64,000 nucleotides of DNA from Candidatus Desulfofervidus auxilii (GTDB lineage Bacteria; Desulfobacterota; Desulfofervidia; Desulfofervidales; Desulfofervidaceae), in assembly GCA_030262725.1 (NCBI GenBank), contig JAJSZS010000001.1, forward strand, positions 124,001 to 188,000, read 5' to 3'. Shown in pieces: positions 52,237 to 62,166 of this stretch. Made by a program: the position numbers and the translations under genes. How positions within the stretch are numbered: the first letter of the stretch is position 1; each line of letters opens with the position of its first letter. The notes under the pieces are model-generated. The model was given only the letters and a program-made list of their open reading frames with translations, ran no database searches and was not told the DNA's origin.

Positions 52237-53290
52237 AGAAATTGTGCATAAGGTAGAAAGTGGAGAAAGACTTAGTTTTAATGATGGTCTTTTTCTTTAT
52301 CAAGCACCTTTATTTTTTCTTGGAGAATTAGCAAAAATTGTAAGAGAAAAATTACATGGGAAAAGGGCATATTATGTTTATAATCAACATATTAATTATA
52401 GCAATATTTGCATAAATCTTTGCAAATTTTGTGCTTTTGGTAAACCAAAAGGAGATCCAAAGGCATTCACTTTGAGTTTAGAGGAAATAGAATCTAAGGT
52501 TAAATCTCGTTTGAATGAACCTATAAAAGAGATTCATATTGTTGGAGGACTTAATCCTGAACTTCCCTTTGAATATTATATTGAGATTATAAAGATTGTG
52601 CGCTCAATTCGTCCAGATGTCTGCATTAAAGCCTATACAGCTACTGAAATTGCCCATTTTTCTAAAATAACAGGCAAAAATATTGAAGAAGTTTTATCAA
52701 TTTTAAAAGAAGCAGGTTTAAATATTTTACCTGGTGGTGGAGCAGAAGTATTTAGTGATAGAGTAAGAAGGGCATTATGTCCTAAAAAGCTTTCTGGTAA
52801 AGAATGGTTAGAGGTTATCAAGACCGCCCATCGCTTAGGCATACCTACAAATTGTACTATGCTTTATGGTCATATTGAGACCATTGAGGAACGTCTTGAG
52901 CATTTAATTGCCTTAAGGAATGCACAAGATGAAACAGGTGGTTTTCTTTGTTTTATTCCACTTTCATTTCATCCAAAAAATACAAGATTAGATTACTTGC
53001 CAGGGCCAACTGGTATAGAAGATTTAAAGACAATTGCTATTTCTCGACTTATGCTAGATAACATTCCTCATATTAAGGCATATTGGGTCATGCTTACACC
53101 AAAGCTTGCGCAGGTTGCTTTAAATTTTGGAGCAGATGATATGGATGGTACTATTATTGAAGAAAAGATTACCCATATGGCAAAAGCAGAATCCCCACAA
53201 TGTTTAACAAAAAAGGAATTAGAAAGTTTAATAAGAGAAGCAGGTTATGAACCAGTAGAAAGGAATGGATTTTTTGAAAAAGCAAGATAA
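52229..53290 (+). CDS. mqnE: Aminofutalosine synthase MqnE
   Basis: Radical SAM enzyme that joins an adenosyl group to 3-[(1-carboxyvinyl)oxy]benzoate to make aminofutalosine. The motif C61-x3-C65-x2-C68 (CINLCKFCAFG) is followed by LPGGGAEVFSDRVR, TNCTMLYGHIET and GGFLCFIPLSFHPKNT, the MqnE pattern. Length is 353. It overlaps mqnC by 26 bases. Confidence 0.93.
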   Translation: MFKEIVHKVESGERLSFNDGLFLYQAPLFFLGELAKIVREKLHGKRAYYVYNQHINYSNICINLCKFCAFGKPKGDPKAFTLSLEEIESKVKSRLNEPIKEIHIVGGLNPELPFEYYIEIIKIVRSIRPDVCIKAYTATEIAHFSKITGKNIEEVLSILKEAGLNILPGGGAEVFSDRVRRALCPKKLSGKEWLEVIKTAHRLGIPTNCTMLYGHIETIEERLEHLIALRNAQDETGGFLCFIPLSFHPKNTRLDYLPGPTGIEDLKTIAISRLMLDNIPHIKAYWVMLTPKLAQVALNFGADDMDGTIIEEKITHMAKAESPQCLTKKELESLIREAGYEPVERNGFFEKAR

Positions 53291-54338
53291 AAAACTGATT
53301 GATAAAATTTTAAATGGTGAGCGACTTAAAAAAGAAGAAGCTATAAGACTATTTGATTTAGATTTGATTTTACTAGGTAAACTGGCACATCAAATAAGAT
53401 TACGTTTACATCCAGAGCCTATAGTAACTTATATTGTTGATCGTAATATTAATTATTCAAATATTTGTATTTCTTGCTGTAAATTTTGTGCATTTTGGCG
53501 TCCAAAAGGACATCCAGAGGCATATGTTTTGAATAAAAAAGAATTAGCTAAAAAAATAGAAGAAACTATTGAATTAGGTGGTATTCAAATTTTATTACAA
53601 GGAGGATTGCATCCTGATTGGACTATTTCTGATTATGAAGAGATGCTTTTTTGGATAAAAAAACATTATCCAAATATTCATATTCATGGTTTATCTGCTC
53701 CAGAAATAGCACATATTGCTAAAAAATCTAATTTAAGTATTGAAGAAACTTTAATAAGGCTTAAAAAAGCAGGTCTTAATTCTATCCCTGGTGGAGGGGC
53801 AGAGATCTTAGTAGATAGAGTGCGTAAAATTCTTTCTCCAAATAAATGTGATGTATTTACCTGGCTTAAAGTTATGGAAACAGCACACAAATTAGGAATA
53901 AAAACCACTGCTACAATGATGTTTGGCCATATAGAAACTTATGAAGAACGTATTGAACATTTGTTTAAGATTAGAGATTTACAAGATAAAACACATGGTT
54001 TTACTGCTTTTATTCCTTGGACATTTCAACCCAAAAATACAGCTCTGAATTATTTAAAACCAGTAGGTGCTGTTGAATATTTAAAAACATTGGCAATTTC
54101 TCGAATTATTTTAGATAATATTCCCAATATTCAAGCCTCATGGGTTACACAAGGGGCAAAAATTGGGCAAATTTCCTTATTTTTTGGGGCAAATGATTTA
54201 GGTAGCCTTATGATAGAGGAAAATGTAGTTGCTGCTACTGGTGTGAAATTTCGTATGAATGAAAAAGAAATGTGTTATTTAATAGAAAAAGCAGGTTTTA
54301 AACCACAGAGAAGAAACATGTATTATGAATGGGTTTAA
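53265..54338 (+). CDS. mqnC: Cyclic dehypoxanthinyl futalosine synthase MqnC
   Basis: Radical SAM cyclase of the futalosine route. The DRNINYSNICISCCKFCAFW region has C68, C72 and C75 of the CX3CX2C motif. SIPGGGAEILVDRVR and TAFIPWTFQPKNTAL distinguish MqnC from MqnE. Length is 357. AAGGA lies directly before the ATG, so a TTG three codons on (53274) is a possible alternative start. Confidence 0.93.
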   Translation: MDFLKKQDKKLIDKILNGERLKKEEAIRLFDLDLILLGKLAHQIRLRLHPEPIVTYIVDRNINYSNICISCCKFCAFWRPKGHPEAYVLNKKELAKKIEETIELGGIQILLQGGLHPDWTISDYEEMLFWIKKHYPNIHIHGLSAPEIAHIAKKSNLSIEETLIRLKKAGLNSIPGGGAEILVDRVRKILSPNKCDVFTWLKVMETAHKLGIKTTATMMFGHIETYEERIEHLFKIRDLQDKTHGFTAFIPWTFQPKNTALNYLKPVGAVEYLKTLAISRIILDNIPNIQASWVTQGAKIGQISLFFGANDLGSLMIEENVVAATGVKFRMNEKEMCYLIEKAGFKPQRRNMYYEWV

Positions 54339-55500
54339 AATTCATCGTGCTAAATGGATATTGCCTATATTTTGTCCACCTATTGAAAATGGTGCTATAG
54401 CTATAAGTCAAGGAAAAATTTTAGAAGTTGGCAATTATAAAGAAATAAGAAAGAAAATAAATGGTGAAGTTATTGATCATGGTGAAGGGATATTGTTTCC
54501 TGCTTTAGTAAATGTCCATACTCATTTAGAACTTTCGGCATTAAAAGGTATTAAAAAAGATAATTTTGTTGATTGGTTAAGCTCTATCATTGTTGCAAAA
54601 ATGGGATTAAAAAGAGAAAAACGTAAGGAAGCAGAAAAAAAAGCATATAATGATTTAAAGATTACAGGTACAGCCCTTTTTGGAAACATAAAAAATATAC
54701 CAGAAAATGATAATCTTCCTGGAGAAGTAATTTTTTTTGAATTTATTGGTTTTAATGAAAATATAGCTCAAAAACGCTGGAAAAACTGGCTAAATTTTAT
54801 AGAAACTTATCCAAAAGTAATGCCATCTGCTCATTCTCCTTATAGTGTACATCCAAAATTTTTAAAAAAAATTAAAAAATTAGCTAGGGAAAATAAAAAA
54901 ATATTTTCTATTCATGTAGCAGAAAGTGAGGCAGAAGTAGAATTTTTACTTACTGGAAAAGGTAAAATTGCCTCTTTGCTTAAAGAAAAAGGTGTTTGGG
55001 AAGATGGGCTTATACCTAAAAAAAGACCAATAGATTATTTAGAATCTCTTAAGATACTTGACTCTAATACTTTATGTGTACATTGTATAGAGGTGACACA
55101 AAAAGAGATTGAGATTTTAAAAAAATATAAAGTAAAAATTTGTATCTGTCCCAGAAGTAATGCTAATTTGGGTTTAAAAAAACCTCCTCTTTTTCTTTTT
55201 AAAAAATTTGGTCTATTTCTCTGTTTAGGTACAGATAGTTTAGCTAGTAATGAGGATTTAAATCTTTTTAAAGAAATGGGCTATTTATTAAATGAAGGCA
55301 TTTTTTCTCCTAGTGAATTGTTAGAGATGGGAACATGGAAAGGTAGTATTGCTTTAGGATTTGGATGCCGTTTTGGTACATTTTTCCCTCATGCAGAGGC
55401 AAAGATATTGTTTTCTCCAATTATTGGAAAAAATTTGGCAGAGGCTGTAATTATAGCTGGAATAGAAAGAAAAGTAAGATGGATAGAAAATTACGCTTAG
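54325..55500 (+). CDS. mqnX: Aminofutalosine deaminase, amidohydrolase family (MqnX-like)
   Basis: Deaminates aminofutalosine to futalosine. It is a 391-residue TrzA/AtzA-type metal hydrolase with the HxH site in LVNVHTHLELSALKG, HVAESEAEVEFL, VHCIEVTQKEI and the final Asp in LCLGTDSLASNEDL. The assignment to MqnX rests on its position between mqnC and mqnA as well as sequence. It overlaps both neighbours. Confidence 0.85.
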   Translation: MNGFKIHRAKWILPIFCPPIENGAIAISQGKILEVGNYKEIRKKINGEVIDHGEGILFPALVNVHTHLELSALKGIKKDNFVDWLSSIIVAKMGLKREKRKEAEKKAYNDLKITGTALFGNIKNIPENDNLPGEVIFFEFIGFNENIAQKRWKNWLNFIETYPKVMPSAHSPYSVHPKFLKKIKKLARENKKIFSIHVAESEAEVEFLLTGKGKIASLLKEKGVWEDGLIPKKRPIDYLESLKILDSNTLCVHCIEVTQKEIEILKKYKVKICICPRSNANLGLKKPPLFLFKKFGLFLCLGTDSLASNEDLNLFKEMGYLLNEGIFSPSELLEMGTWKGSIALGFGCRFGTFFPHAEAKILFSPIIGKNLAEAVIIAGIERKVRWIENYA

Positions 55501-56294
55501 GTAAATTTCCATTTTTAAATTGTGTACCAATCTATTATGGTCTAGAAACAGGTAAAATAAAATGCAAAGAGGAATTTCATTTAATTTCTGCTCCTCCAAC
55601 AAATCTTAATAATCTTCTTAAAAAAGCTAAATTAGATATAAGCCCTATTTCCTCAATAGCATATGTTGACATAGTTAATGAATGTTTAATTTTGCCAGAA
55701 CTTTCTATATCTGCTAAGGGAAAAGTAAAAAGTGTAGTACTTTTTAGTCGTGTGCCAATAGAAGAACTTGATGGGTGTCCTGTTTTTGTTACTAAACAAT
55801 CAGCCACTTCCGTTGCCCTTTTAAAGCTTATTTTAAAAAAAGAATTTGGCATTAAACCTATTTATAAAAAAGGCGAGATTATTAAATTTAATGGGACAGT
55901 TATAGCTGGATTAGCTATTGGTGATGCAGCCTTAAATCTTAGGGCAAAAAGAATCTATCCTTATCAGCTTGATTTAAGCGAGATTTGGCAAAAATGGACA
56001 GGTTTACCATTTGTATTTAGTTTTTTTGTGGTAAGAAAAACATTTTGGGAAACGCATAGAAGGAAAATCATAAACATTTGGCAAGCACTTCTTGCCTCAA
56101 AAAAATGGGGTCTTTCTCATTTAAATATCATTGCCACATTATATAAACATTTAGATAATCCAATTGCCTACTGGCAATGTTTAAATTATGATTTATCCTC
56201 TTTGCACTTAGAGAGTTTAAGGCTATTTTTTTATCACTTAAAGGAAATGGAAGAGATTGTAACTATACCCGAAATAAAATTAATGGAAATTTAA
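55479..56294 (+). CDS. mqnA: Chorismate dehydratase MqnA
   Basis: Removes water from chorismate to give 3-[(1-carboxyvinyl)oxy]benzoate, the first futalosine-route step. ATG 55479 gives the family N terminus RKLRLGKFPFLNCVPIYYGL. ISPISSIAYVD, VFVTKQSATSVALLKL, IGDAAL and GLPFVFSFFVVR are typical. Length is 271. It overlaps the deaminase gene by 22 bases and is followed by topA. mqnD and the later UbiA/UbiE-type steps are not in the window. Confidence 0.92.
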   Translation: MDRKLRLGKFPFLNCVPIYYGLETGKIKCKEEFHLISAPPTNLNNLLKKAKLDISPISSIAYVDIVNECLILPELSISAKGKVKSVVLFSRVPIEELDGCPVFVTKQSATSVALLKLILKKEFGIKPIYKKGEIIKFNGTVIAGLAIGDAALNLRAKRIYPYQLDLSEIWQKWTGLPFVFSFFVVRKTFWETHRRKIINIWQALLASKKWGLSHLNIIATLYKHLDNPIAYWQCLNYDLSSLHLESLRLFFYHLKEMEEIVTIPEIKLMEI

Positions 56295-58485: not shown

Positions 58486-58534
58486 TTTATTTCAAATTCA
58501 ACTTTGCCAGTACCAAGATAATAGGAGTCAATTA

Positions 58535-59494
58535 ATGTTTGTGCTTGCTTTATTGGGTAGTCCTAGGAAAGGAGGAAATACAGAAAGTCTTCTTTTTGCC
58601 TTTTTAGAAGGTATAAAAGAAATGGGAGGAGAAATAAAAGTATTAAATATTGCAGAAAAGAGGATTTTTCCTTGTATAGAGTGTGGAAAATGTGAGGAAA
58701 ATGGTTTTTGTTTTATTAAAGACGATATGGAAGAAATTTATTTTCTTCTGAGGCAAGCTGATGCAGTGATTCTTGCTACACCTGTTTTTTTCTATAATGT
58801 TCCTGCTCAATTAAAGGCCTTTATTGATCGTTGTCAAGTATTTTGGGTAAGAAGATATATTTTAAATCTTATAGATCCAAAAGCCACTTTCCGTTTAGGC
58901 TTTTTGCTTACAGTAGGAGCGACAAAATGTAAAAATCTTTTTTTTGGTATTGAGCTTACAGCCAAATATTTTTTTAAAGCTATTGGAGCAAAATACAAAA
59001 AAAAGCTTGGTTTTAAAAGAATAGAAAAAAAGGGAGATATAATTTATCATCCAACTGCATTAAAAGAAGCCTATTTAGAAGGGAAAAAATTTATAAAATC
59101 TTTTAAAAAAAGAAAAAAAATAATCTTTATTTCTCAAAAAAACGCTTGCCGTAGCCATATGGCTGAAGCCTTTTTACAATATTATGCTGGAAAATACTTT
59201 GATGTAAAAAGTGCTGGTATACAGCCAGCTTCAAATATAGATCCATTAGTAATAAAAGTTATGGCAGAAAAAGGGATTGATTTAGTTTATCGTCGACCTA
59301 AAAAAATAGAAGTTGTGCAGGAAGATTTATATGATCTATTAATTCAAATGGATGAGGGATATAAAGCTATTATTTCTGCTAATAAAGTAGAAAATTGGAA
59401 TATAAAGAAAAAAGAAAAAAATATTAAAAACATACGCCAACTGCGAGATGAGATAGAAAAAAGAATAAAAAATTTAATAAAAAATTTAATTTAG
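58535..59494 (+). CDS. Iron-sulfur flavoprotein fused to a phosphatase/arsenate-reductase-like domain lacking its catalytic Cys
   Basis: 319 residues from ATG 58535, with AGGAG seven bases ahead. The N-terminal half is an NADPH:FMN reductase/Isf-type flavodoxin fold (LGSPRKGGNTESLL) with cluster ligands C47, C50, C53 and C59 (PCIECGKCEENGFC). From about residue 190 a low-molecular-weight phosphatase/ArsC domain follows. Its P-loop reads ISQKNACRSHMAEAF: Ser200 stands where the nucleophilic Cys of CxxNxCRS should be, while Asn203, Cys205 and Arg206 remain. The second domain is therefore likely a pseudo-enzyme or a binding module. No ars gene is near. Confidence 0.8.
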   Translation: MFVLALLGSPRKGGNTESLLFAFLEGIKEMGGEIKVLNIAEKRIFPCIECGKCEENGFCFIKDDMEEIYFLLRQADAVILATPVFFYNVPAQLKAFIDRCQVFWVRRYILNLIDPKATFRLGFLLTVGATKCKNLFFGIELTAKYFFKAIGAKYKKKLGFKRIEKKGDIIYHPTALKEAYLEGKKFIKSFKKRKKIIFISQKNACRSHMAEAFLQYYAGKYFDVKSAGIQPASNIDPLVIKVMAEKGIDLVYRRPKKIEVVQEDLYDLLIQMDEGYKAIISANKVENWNIKKKEKNIKNIRQLRDEIEKRIKNLIKNLI

Positions 59495-59516
59495 GGGGCT
59501 TTAAGCCCCCTTTTTT
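59494..59516. terminator. Intrinsic terminator between convergent genes
   Basis: GGGGGC and GCCCCC with loop tttaa, followed by six T (59511-59516). It overlaps the last base of the flavoprotein stop and the slyD stop on the other strand. On the minus strand there is no long T-run, so it is strongest for plus-strand transcripts. Confidence 0.85.
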
Positions 59517-60021
59517 AATCACAAGGCTCACTACAAGAAGCACATCCACCAGGGATACAAACAGAACTAGCTTCTGCTAATTCTTCTGCTGTGGCAGGAC
59601 GTACACTAACTACAGAAACCTTAAAATGGAGATTTTCACCTGCTAAAGGATGGTTAAAATCAAGAATGGCTGTTTTGTCTGTTTTTTCTCTGATAGAAAA
59701 ATACATTGGATTTCCTTGTGCATCTACTGTGCGATACATATGTCCTACTTCTATTTCTAAATCTGGTGGAAATTCAGAAAGAGGTACTTCTCTCATTAAT
59801 TCTGGTCTTCTTTCGCCAAAACCTTCAGCAGGAGTAAGTGTAACTTCCATTGTATCGCCAGGTTTAAGCCCTTTTAATTTCCTTTCTAATGCTGGAAAGA
59901 TCTGTCCTTTACCAAAAATGAAAGAATAACGCGCTGGTTCCTTTGCTCCTTCCACCACTTCACCAGAATCCAAGGTTACTGTGTATTGAATTTCCACTAC
60001 CATGTCAGTATCAATCTTCAT
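59515..60021 (-). CDS. slyD: SlyD-like FKBP peptidyl-prolyl isomerase with Cys-rich tail
   Basis: Cytoplasmic folding factor and metallochaperone. The 168-residue protein has the FKBP core with VEIQYTVTLDSGEVVEGAKE and IFGKGQIFPALERKLKGL, an inserted chaperone flap (about residues 70-120) and a C-terminal tail SVCIPGGCASCSEPCD with four Cys, expected to bind nickel or zinc. An AGGAGG site precedes the ATG. Its mRNA is predicted to begin with a stem-loop. Confidence 0.92.
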   Translation of the reverse strand: MKIDTDMVVEIQYTVTLDSGEVVEGAKEPARYSFIFGKGQIFPALERKLKGLKPGDTMEVTLTPAEGFGERRPELMREVPLSEFPPDLEIEVGHMYRTVDAQGNPMYFSIREKTDKTAILDFNHPLAGENLHFKVSVVSVRPATAEELAEASSVCIPGGCASCSEPCD

Positions 60022-61154: not shown

Positions 61155-61292
61155 ATGAGAAAAATTAATTTAACATGGTTTTTTATCTTTCTTGGTTTAT
61201 TCTTTATAATTTTTGGTCTCTATTTTGGTGAGGTAAAAATACTTCTTAAAAAAGCTACAAATATTTGTTTAAGTTGTATGGGTATTGGTTAA
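61155..61292 (+). CDS. Tiny membrane protein with CXXC tail (CD1871A-like)
   Basis: A 45-residue protein, ATG 61155 to TAA 61292. One transmembrane helix (WFFIFLGLFFIIFGLYFG) is followed by a tail ICLSCMGIG. Size, topology and the terminal CxxC-x-GIG match the CD1871A family of CXXC proteins, which sit beside 4Fe-4S NapH-type proteins. It begins one base after tatC. The role may be thiol or cluster transfer; that is inference. Confidence 0.7.
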   Translation: MRKINLTWFFIFLGLFFIIFGLYFGEVKILLKKATNICLSCMGIG

Positions 61293-61296
61293 TATT

Positions 61297-62166
61297 ATGA
61301 GACGTCGAATTCAATTTCTTTGGCTATTTTTTAATAATGGTTATTGGGCATTCTTAGGTAAAGAGAAAATTTATACAGGACCTTTAAAAGCCTTCTGTGC
61401 ACCAGGTCTTAATTGTTATTCTTGCCCAGCTGCTACTTTAAGTTGTCCTATTGGTGCTATTCAACACTTTCTTTCTGAATTAAGGTTTAACTGGCACAAT
61501 AGTATTTATGTTTTCGGCATTTATGTTTTAGGAACAATGATTATTATCGGTGCCTTTGTTGGTCGTATGGCTTGCGGTTGGGCTTGTCCTTTTGGTCTTT
61601 TACAAGAAATTATTTTTAAGTTACCTACACGCAAATTTTCTTTACCTAAATATTTTTCGCTTTTTAAATATGCAATTTTATTATTTTTTGTTTTTTTATT
61701 ACCTATTTTAATTATAGACAAAATGGGTTATGGTGAAGCATGGTTTTGTCGTTATCTATGTCCTGTTGGTACATTAGAAGCAGGTTTGCCTCTTTTAATA
61801 TTAATACCTAGTTTAAAACAGCAGATTACTTGGGTTTTTTATCATAAACTAATAATTTTATCGATATTTTTAATAATGACTATATTTTTTAAACGTCCTT
61901 TTTGCCATATACTTTGTCCATTGGGTGCTTTTTATGGTTTATTTAATCGTTTTAGTCTTTTACAAATGCATGTAGATAAAACAAAGTGTAAAAAGTGTGA
62001 TATTTGTTACAAATATTGTCCAATGGGAATTAAGATTTATGAAAAACCAAATCAATTAGATTGTTTGAGATGTCTTACTTGTTACAATGTTTGTCCTGAA
62101 AAGGCTATTTCTTTAACTTTTGGAACTCATCACACCATGTTGTTAAAGGACAAACATCACATTTAG
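61297..62166 (+). CDS. NapH/NosR-like membrane polyferredoxin
   Basis: Integral membrane 4Fe-4S protein of 289 residues with about four transmembrane segments. Cysteine motifs include NCYSCPAATLSCPIGA, CGWACPFG, CRYLCPVG and CHILCPLG, followed by two ferredoxin clusters (CKKCDICYKYCP and CLRCLTCYNVCP). It should pass electrons across or along the membrane to a periplasmic partner. It follows tatC and the CXXC peptide in the same operon. The 3' end overlaps nth by 62 bases. Confidence 0.85.
   Translation: MRRRIQFLWLFFNNGYWAFLGKEKIYTGPLKAFCAPGLNCYSCPAATLSCPIGAIQHFLSELRFNWHNSIYVFGIYVLGTMIIIGAFVGRMACGWACPFGLLQEIIFKLPTRKFSLPKYFSLFKYAILLFFVFLLPILIIDKMGYGEAWFCRYLCPVGTLEAGLPLLILIPSLKQQITWVFYHKLIILSIFLIMTIFFKRPFCHILCPLGAFYGLFNRFSLLQMHVDKTKCKKCDICYKYCPMGIKIYEKPNQLDCLRCLTCYNVCPEKAISLTFGTHHTMLLKDKHHI

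Follow-up and report, generated by a model that had tools for sequence, protein, structure and literature searches.

An Isf-type iron-sulfur flavoprotein fused to an ArsC-like domain with a recurrently lost active site

Iron-sulfur flavoproteins (Isf) carry their cluster on a compact CX2CX2CX4-7C motif. Archaeal Isf reportedly interacts with O2 and H2O2 (Cruz and Ferry 2006). For the second domain of the protein described here, the best solved relative is PDB entry 3t38, an arsenate reductase (ArsC) of Corynebacterium glutamicum. The Isf proteins of Methanosarcina thermophila and Archaeoglobus fulgidus are the subject of work (Zhao 2001, Andrade 2005, Cruz and Ferry 2006) cited in PMC3164229 and PMC4338226. 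In Entamoeba cells that are resistant to metronidazole or were treated with it, a type A flavoprotein increases along with the Isf genes (PMC4419850). This joint rise is an independent hint of a link between Isf and flavodiiron proteins. The Isf and ArsC halves are known families; their fusion, with recurrent catalytic loss, is apparently undescribed. In the open-access literature we found no description of an Isf–arsenate reductase fusion or of an ArsC pseudoenzyme, although absence there is not proof.

The window analysed here is a 64,000-nucleotide stretch of a contig of Candidatus Desulfofervidus auxilii, in which a single open reading frame (58,535–59,494, plus strand) encodes a 319-residue protein of two domains, an Isf-type iron-sulfur flavoprotein followed by an ArsC/low-molecular-weight (LMW) phosphatase-like pseudoenzyme. 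The fusion, proposed in the original prediction, is real: the FMN_red and LMWPc matches both lie well over their Pfam cut-offs, and homologues extend over its full length. The N-terminal domain (residues 1–190; 58,535–59,104, plus strand) has the FMN_red/flavodoxin fold with the FMN-site motifs GSPRKGGNT and TPVFFYNVPAQLKAFIDR (FMN_red over residues 1–102, 3.6e-24, 85.5 bits against a cut-off of 24), and in the alignment 69 of its 77 conserved positions are kept. Its compact cluster motif, CX2CX2CX5C, is complete, as originally read, with C47, C50, C53 and C59 all present (58,673–58,711, plus strand). From these motifs the protein is predicted to hold FMN and one [4Fe-4S] cluster. The C-terminal ArsC/LMW protein tyrosine phosphatase (PTP)-like domain comprises residues 192–319 (59,108–59,491, plus strand; LMWPc over residues 196–300, 1.1e-18, 68.2 bits against 23.2). 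On the same strand, a Shine-Dalgarno-like AGGAG lies 7 nt 5' of the ATG (58,523–58,527), and a terminator-like hairpin with a T tail lies directly 3' of the stop codon, where two convergent genes meet (59,493–59,511). GC3 is 0.163 in the N-terminal half, 0.162 in the C-terminal half and 0.148 in topA; thus, the fusion is one native gene. A structure prediction for the protein from three sequences had a mean pLDDT of 48 and was not used as evidence.

Intact relatives read CRENACRSQMA at the P-loop, MGCxxxCP at the resolving cysteines and WDLxDPxG at the general acid, and in the window protein none of the three elements (P-loop Cys, CX3C pair, DP) is left. Its degenerate P-loop (59,132–59,155, plus strand), aligned with 34 and then with 153 fusions (consensus CRENACRS), reads S200-QKNAC-R206-S207. 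The nucleophile is replaced by Ser200 (codon tct) and N203, C205, R206 and S207 are kept, exactly as the original prediction stated, and K and H replace E202 and Q208 of the family loop. At the site of the resolving/redox Cys pair the protein reads MD-EGYKA (59,345–59,377, plus strand), and where relatives carry WDLxDP, with the general-acid Asp-Pro of the ArsC/LMW-PTP fold, it reads WNIKKK (in WNIKKKE; site at 59,408–59,413, plus strand). Measured against LMW protein tyrosine phosphatase, both the CX5R nucleophile and the DP general acid are therefore lost. The earlier description of a redox module with a catalytically dead partner domain holds, including the absence of the later redox Cys pair. 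The loss extends further than was seen, in that the general acid had been missed; the scaffold is kept. Because several independent active-site positions have changed together, one sequencing error cannot account for the loss, and with native codon usage as well, sequencing or assembly error was ruled out.

The C-domain of a live fusion aligns to the arsenate reductase 3t38 at 95 bits, with P-loop Cys, CX3C and DP in register. The best reading is that the domain descends from a three-cysteine, thioredoxin-type arsenate reductase of the LMW-PTP fold, formerly catalytic and, to judge by the residues, still so in most relatives. Against the NCBIfam equivalog models the window protein scores 53.1 (cut-off 174.3, TIGR02691) and 64.2 (cut-off 157.6, TIGR02689), and intact fusions likewise fall below the cut-offs, at 70–86 bits.

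A search for homologues with the same two-domain order, followed by alignment of their P-loops, found matches over both domains in 35 of the 395 phylum genomes sampled, the window genome included. The fusions of the 34 other genomes are 41–54% identical to the window protein (fusions overall, typically 40–54%), and beyond them lie matches to the N-domain only. One order gave matches at 1e-62 or better in 257 of 390 genomes, and among the matches listed nearly all span both domains; the nearest group is one order, with the fusion in 8 of 10 genomes. The closest proteins from the family to which the window genome belongs are Isf-type flavoproteins that stand alone, without the C-domain. The window genome has a stand-alone Isf paralogue of its own on another contig (C69), and no second LMWPc protein was found in it or in its family members. 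A scan of wider genome contigs, a limited probe for fusions outside the phylum, yielded N-domain relatives only, from Zixibacteria. Spread of the fusion by plasmids or phages was rejected, the full-length fusion being absent from the plasmids and viral contigs searched.

Across 154 non-redundant fusions, the P-loop Cys, CX3C pair and DP are all present in 99, all absent in 33 and mixed in 22, the bimodal pattern expected if one catalytic loss frees the other elements. The mixed members include one (L080) in which C200 has become Ser and the rest of the site is intact, and five (L118, L119, L131, L137 and L178) in which C200 is kept and the Cys pair is lost. The P-loop Cys is missing from 46 of the 154, replaced by Ser, Gly, Asp or Ala. 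Its losses fall into 22 all-dead clades on a tree of the N-domain and 20 on a tree of the full protein minus the site columns, with at least 20–21 changes; these are quick FastTree trees without an inferred root, in which weak nodes could merge or split clades, so that "about twenty" is approximate. We take the intact site as ancestral because repeated regain of three elements is improbable. All four cluster cysteines are present in 96 of the 154 fusions. In the other 58, which include both live and dead ArsC members, the second is lost (C50 to Tyr, Leu, Phe or Asp; e.g., L029, L036, L038, L040, L042 and L044), and these proteins may have a cluster with a non-Cys ligand, or no cluster.

Such a distribution could reflect ongoing decay, the C-domain being a useless passenger that is slowly lost behind a functional Isf. 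The relaxed dN/dS of dead C-domains, the existence of Isf without the C-domain in genomes of the same family, and the lack of a flavodiiron protein, Acr3 and any other ArsC in the window genome all point in this direction. By the Nei-Gojobori method, eight disjoint dead pairs, drawn from two dead clades to which the window lineage (with no close relative in the collection) does not belong, gave dN/dS values of 0.137 (N-domain), 0.343 (C-scaffold) and 0.406 (site segments), compared with 0.135, 0.172 and 0.123, respectively, for 29 live pairs. The values for dead C-domains are thus 2–3 times those of live ones, yet still, at about 0.34, far below 1, which indicates that constraint is relaxed but clearly present. 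Several further observations argue against decay: (i) Dead fusions retain their full length. (ii) Among 30 dead representatives, A210, A212, D249 and W288 are present in all 30, and G228, P231, M243 and P255 in 87–97%; C274, D292 and P293 are down to 13–37%. The invariance of D249 and W288 in particular argues against decay. (iii) In the window protein, 11 of 18 conserved site positions are lost versus 4 of 26 in the scaffold (p=0.003); active-site loss is concentrated in the site segments and the scaffold is kept. (iv) On the window branch, which is long (0.69 in the N-domain), the ratio of C-scaffold to N-domain length is 0.77, compared with 1.15 for the whole tree, so the scaffold has evolved no faster than the N-domain. 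We therefore regard decay as doubtful. The original prediction had held that Cys in the homologues and Ser in this genome only would signify recent decay. Most homologues do carry Cys, but the loss is recurrent and the dead domain is under purifying selection, which argues against simple recent decay. Because the fold has been kept after some twenty separate losses of the site, the domain probably has a non-catalytic job.

One such job, favored in the original prediction, would be that of a sensor in which the P-loop, with Ser200, N203, R206 and S207, binds arsenate, phosphate or a phosphorylated partner and relays this to the flavin/Fe-S half. P-loop Cys-to-Ser mutants of PTP-type enzymes bind substrate without turnover, and N203, R206 and S207 are retained in the window protein. 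Oxyanion binding as the retained function would require that the P-loop Asn, Arg and Ser be kept. However, N203 is kept in 43%, R206 in 60% and S207 in 57% of the 30 dead representatives, compared with 93–100% in live members, and the dead family thus lends the sensor no support. In the window protein itself the change of E202 and Q208 to K and H also counts against it, and no regulator, sensor or kinase recurs at most loci, the exception being a histidine-kinase-like gene at three loci of one clade. The window genome lacks an Acr3 pump, which makes a link to arsenate unlikely. We consider a sensor improbable, although the window protein, from its kept N203, R206 and S207, might bind an oxyanion weakly. 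Alternatively, catalysis could have been altered rather than lost, with Ser200 or Cys205 as a new nucleophile or the Cys205 thiol as a redox relay with the flavin domain. C205 is kept in the window protein, and the fusion does place a fold for thiol chemistry onto a flavin/Fe-S donor. However, some live members have G, Y or R in place of C205, dead ones vary at this position, the general acid is also lost, and loss of the P-loop Cys mostly comes with loss of the whole site. Altered catalysis therefore appears highly improbable.

Gene neighborhoods, read over flanks of up to 5 kb from open reading frames or, for L057, L070 and L074, by tblastn, point instead to oxygen defense and Fe-S assembly. 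Neighbor identities were confirmed by Pfam on representatives, except for SufC, which was named from its sequence. Among the 35 fusion loci, a flavodiiron protein is found at 17, rubrerythrin at 13, desulfoferrodoxin at 14, SufB at 10 and SufC at 9. At least one of flavodiiron protein, rubrerythrin and desulfoferrodoxin occurs at 19 of the 35 fusions versus 2 of 20 loci with a stand-alone Isf (p=0.0013 by Fisher's test, a value that ignores shared ancestry). A flavodiiron protein is near all five dead non-window loci examined (in G253, G162, G108, G230 and G294), which suggests that this context is independent of ArsC chemistry. The nearest relatives of the window protein are located between sufCB-DUF166 and purL: in their clade (L051, L060, L061, L062 and L063) the gene order sufC-sufB-DUF166-fusion is kept with purL downstream, and in three of these loci a kinase-like protein with a ferritin-like N-terminus lies between the fusion and purL. 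At L048, L070 and L072 a gene for the catalytic chain of ferredoxin-thioredoxin reductase adjoins the fusion and could supply reductant to a thioredoxin-type ArsC.

The window gene itself has topA upstream and an FKBP gene downstream, with no oxidative-defense neighbor. The latter encodes a SlyD-like, FKBP-type peptidyl-prolyl isomerase (59,515–60,021, minus strand) with a short Cys-rich C-terminal tail, CIPGGCASCSEPCD, which possibly binds metal. Elsewhere in the window, three adjoining genes (53,265–56,294, plus strand) resemble those of menaquinone synthesis by the futalosine pathway, namely a radical SAM protein (MqnE/MqnC/CofH-like), an amidohydrolase (a possible aminofutalosine deaminase) and a VitK2_biosynth protein (MqnA/D-like), and a NapH-like membrane ferredoxin (61,285–62,163, plus strand) directly follows tatA-tatC. 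In the window genome, no Acr3 pump was found, and no flavodiiron protein scored over the cut-off in a search that was positive in two sister genera. An ars operon context was rejected, as the genome has neither Acr3 nor another LMWPc protein.

Our preferred reading, to which we assign a probability of roughly 0.6, is that the window protein is an Isf-type redox protein of oxygen and Fe-S stress defense, with a retired ArsC domain that persists as a structural or docking module. The N-terminal FMN/[4Fe-4S] unit, most likely comparable to archaeal Isf, would pass electrons in the network by which an anaerobe handles oxygen and peroxide and maintains its Fe-S clusters. The ancestral C-domain may have been an arsenate reductase, or a related thiol enzyme, fed by thioredoxin and perhaps by the flavin; in the window lineage and about twenty others its thiol chemistry would then have been lost and its fold kept. 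A dead C-domain could presumably only bind, dimerize or hold, and by exclusion we would guess that it now serves, without catalysis, as a dimerization or docking platform for the flavoprotein half. Counting against this reading are the window gene's lack of an oxidative-defense neighbor, the lack of a flavodiiron protein over the cut-off in its genome, the position of its nearest relatives beside SufCB and PurL instead, and the relaxed constraint in dead C-domains. For the family as a whole, which is widespread in the phylum, we suggest more tentatively, at a little short of even odds, that a thiol-redox domain has become a non-catalytic partner some twenty times, with a structural or docking role in electron transfer under oxygen stress.

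Pseudoenzymes are best known among eukaryotic kinases and phosphatases. If our reading is true, the Isf-ArsC family would provide a natural replicate series for the passage from fused enzyme to pseudoenzyme, and its dozens of intact and dead members, with many separate losses, would make it possible to test directly how a redox enzyme domain functions after its chemistry is gone. The results also suggest that an ArsC-like domain behind a flavoprotein in this phylum should not be annotated as arsenic resistance, because many of these domains lack the residues and their neighbors are genes for oxygen defense or Fe-S assembly. The fusion is, in addition, a concrete candidate for an electron-transfer partner beside flavodiiron proteins in anaerobes.

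In comparison with known systems, the N-domain of the window protein resembles Isf in its FMN_red/flavodoxin fold, its compact Cys motif and its length of about 190 aa, and the protein differs from Isf in the extra 130-aa ArsC-like domain at its C-terminus. With 3t38 and pI258-type ArsC it shares the LMW-PTP fold (by sequence), the P-loop frame, the W and the C-terminal helix, to which intact fusions add the P-loop Cys, CX3C and DP; unlike these enzymes, it lacks the P-loop Cys, both redox cysteines and the general acid, and is fused behind a flavoprotein. Intact Isf-ArsC fusions of the same phylum (e.g., L014, L016 and L021) have the same domain order and length and are 50–54% identical to the window protein, but keep a complete ArsC active site. 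Other dead fusions (e.g., L032, L038, L040, L042, L044, L134 and L192) represent separate losses by the tree, have often lost the P-loop N/R/S and in some cases lack the second cluster Cys, yet they share both the architecture of the window protein and its kind of loss.
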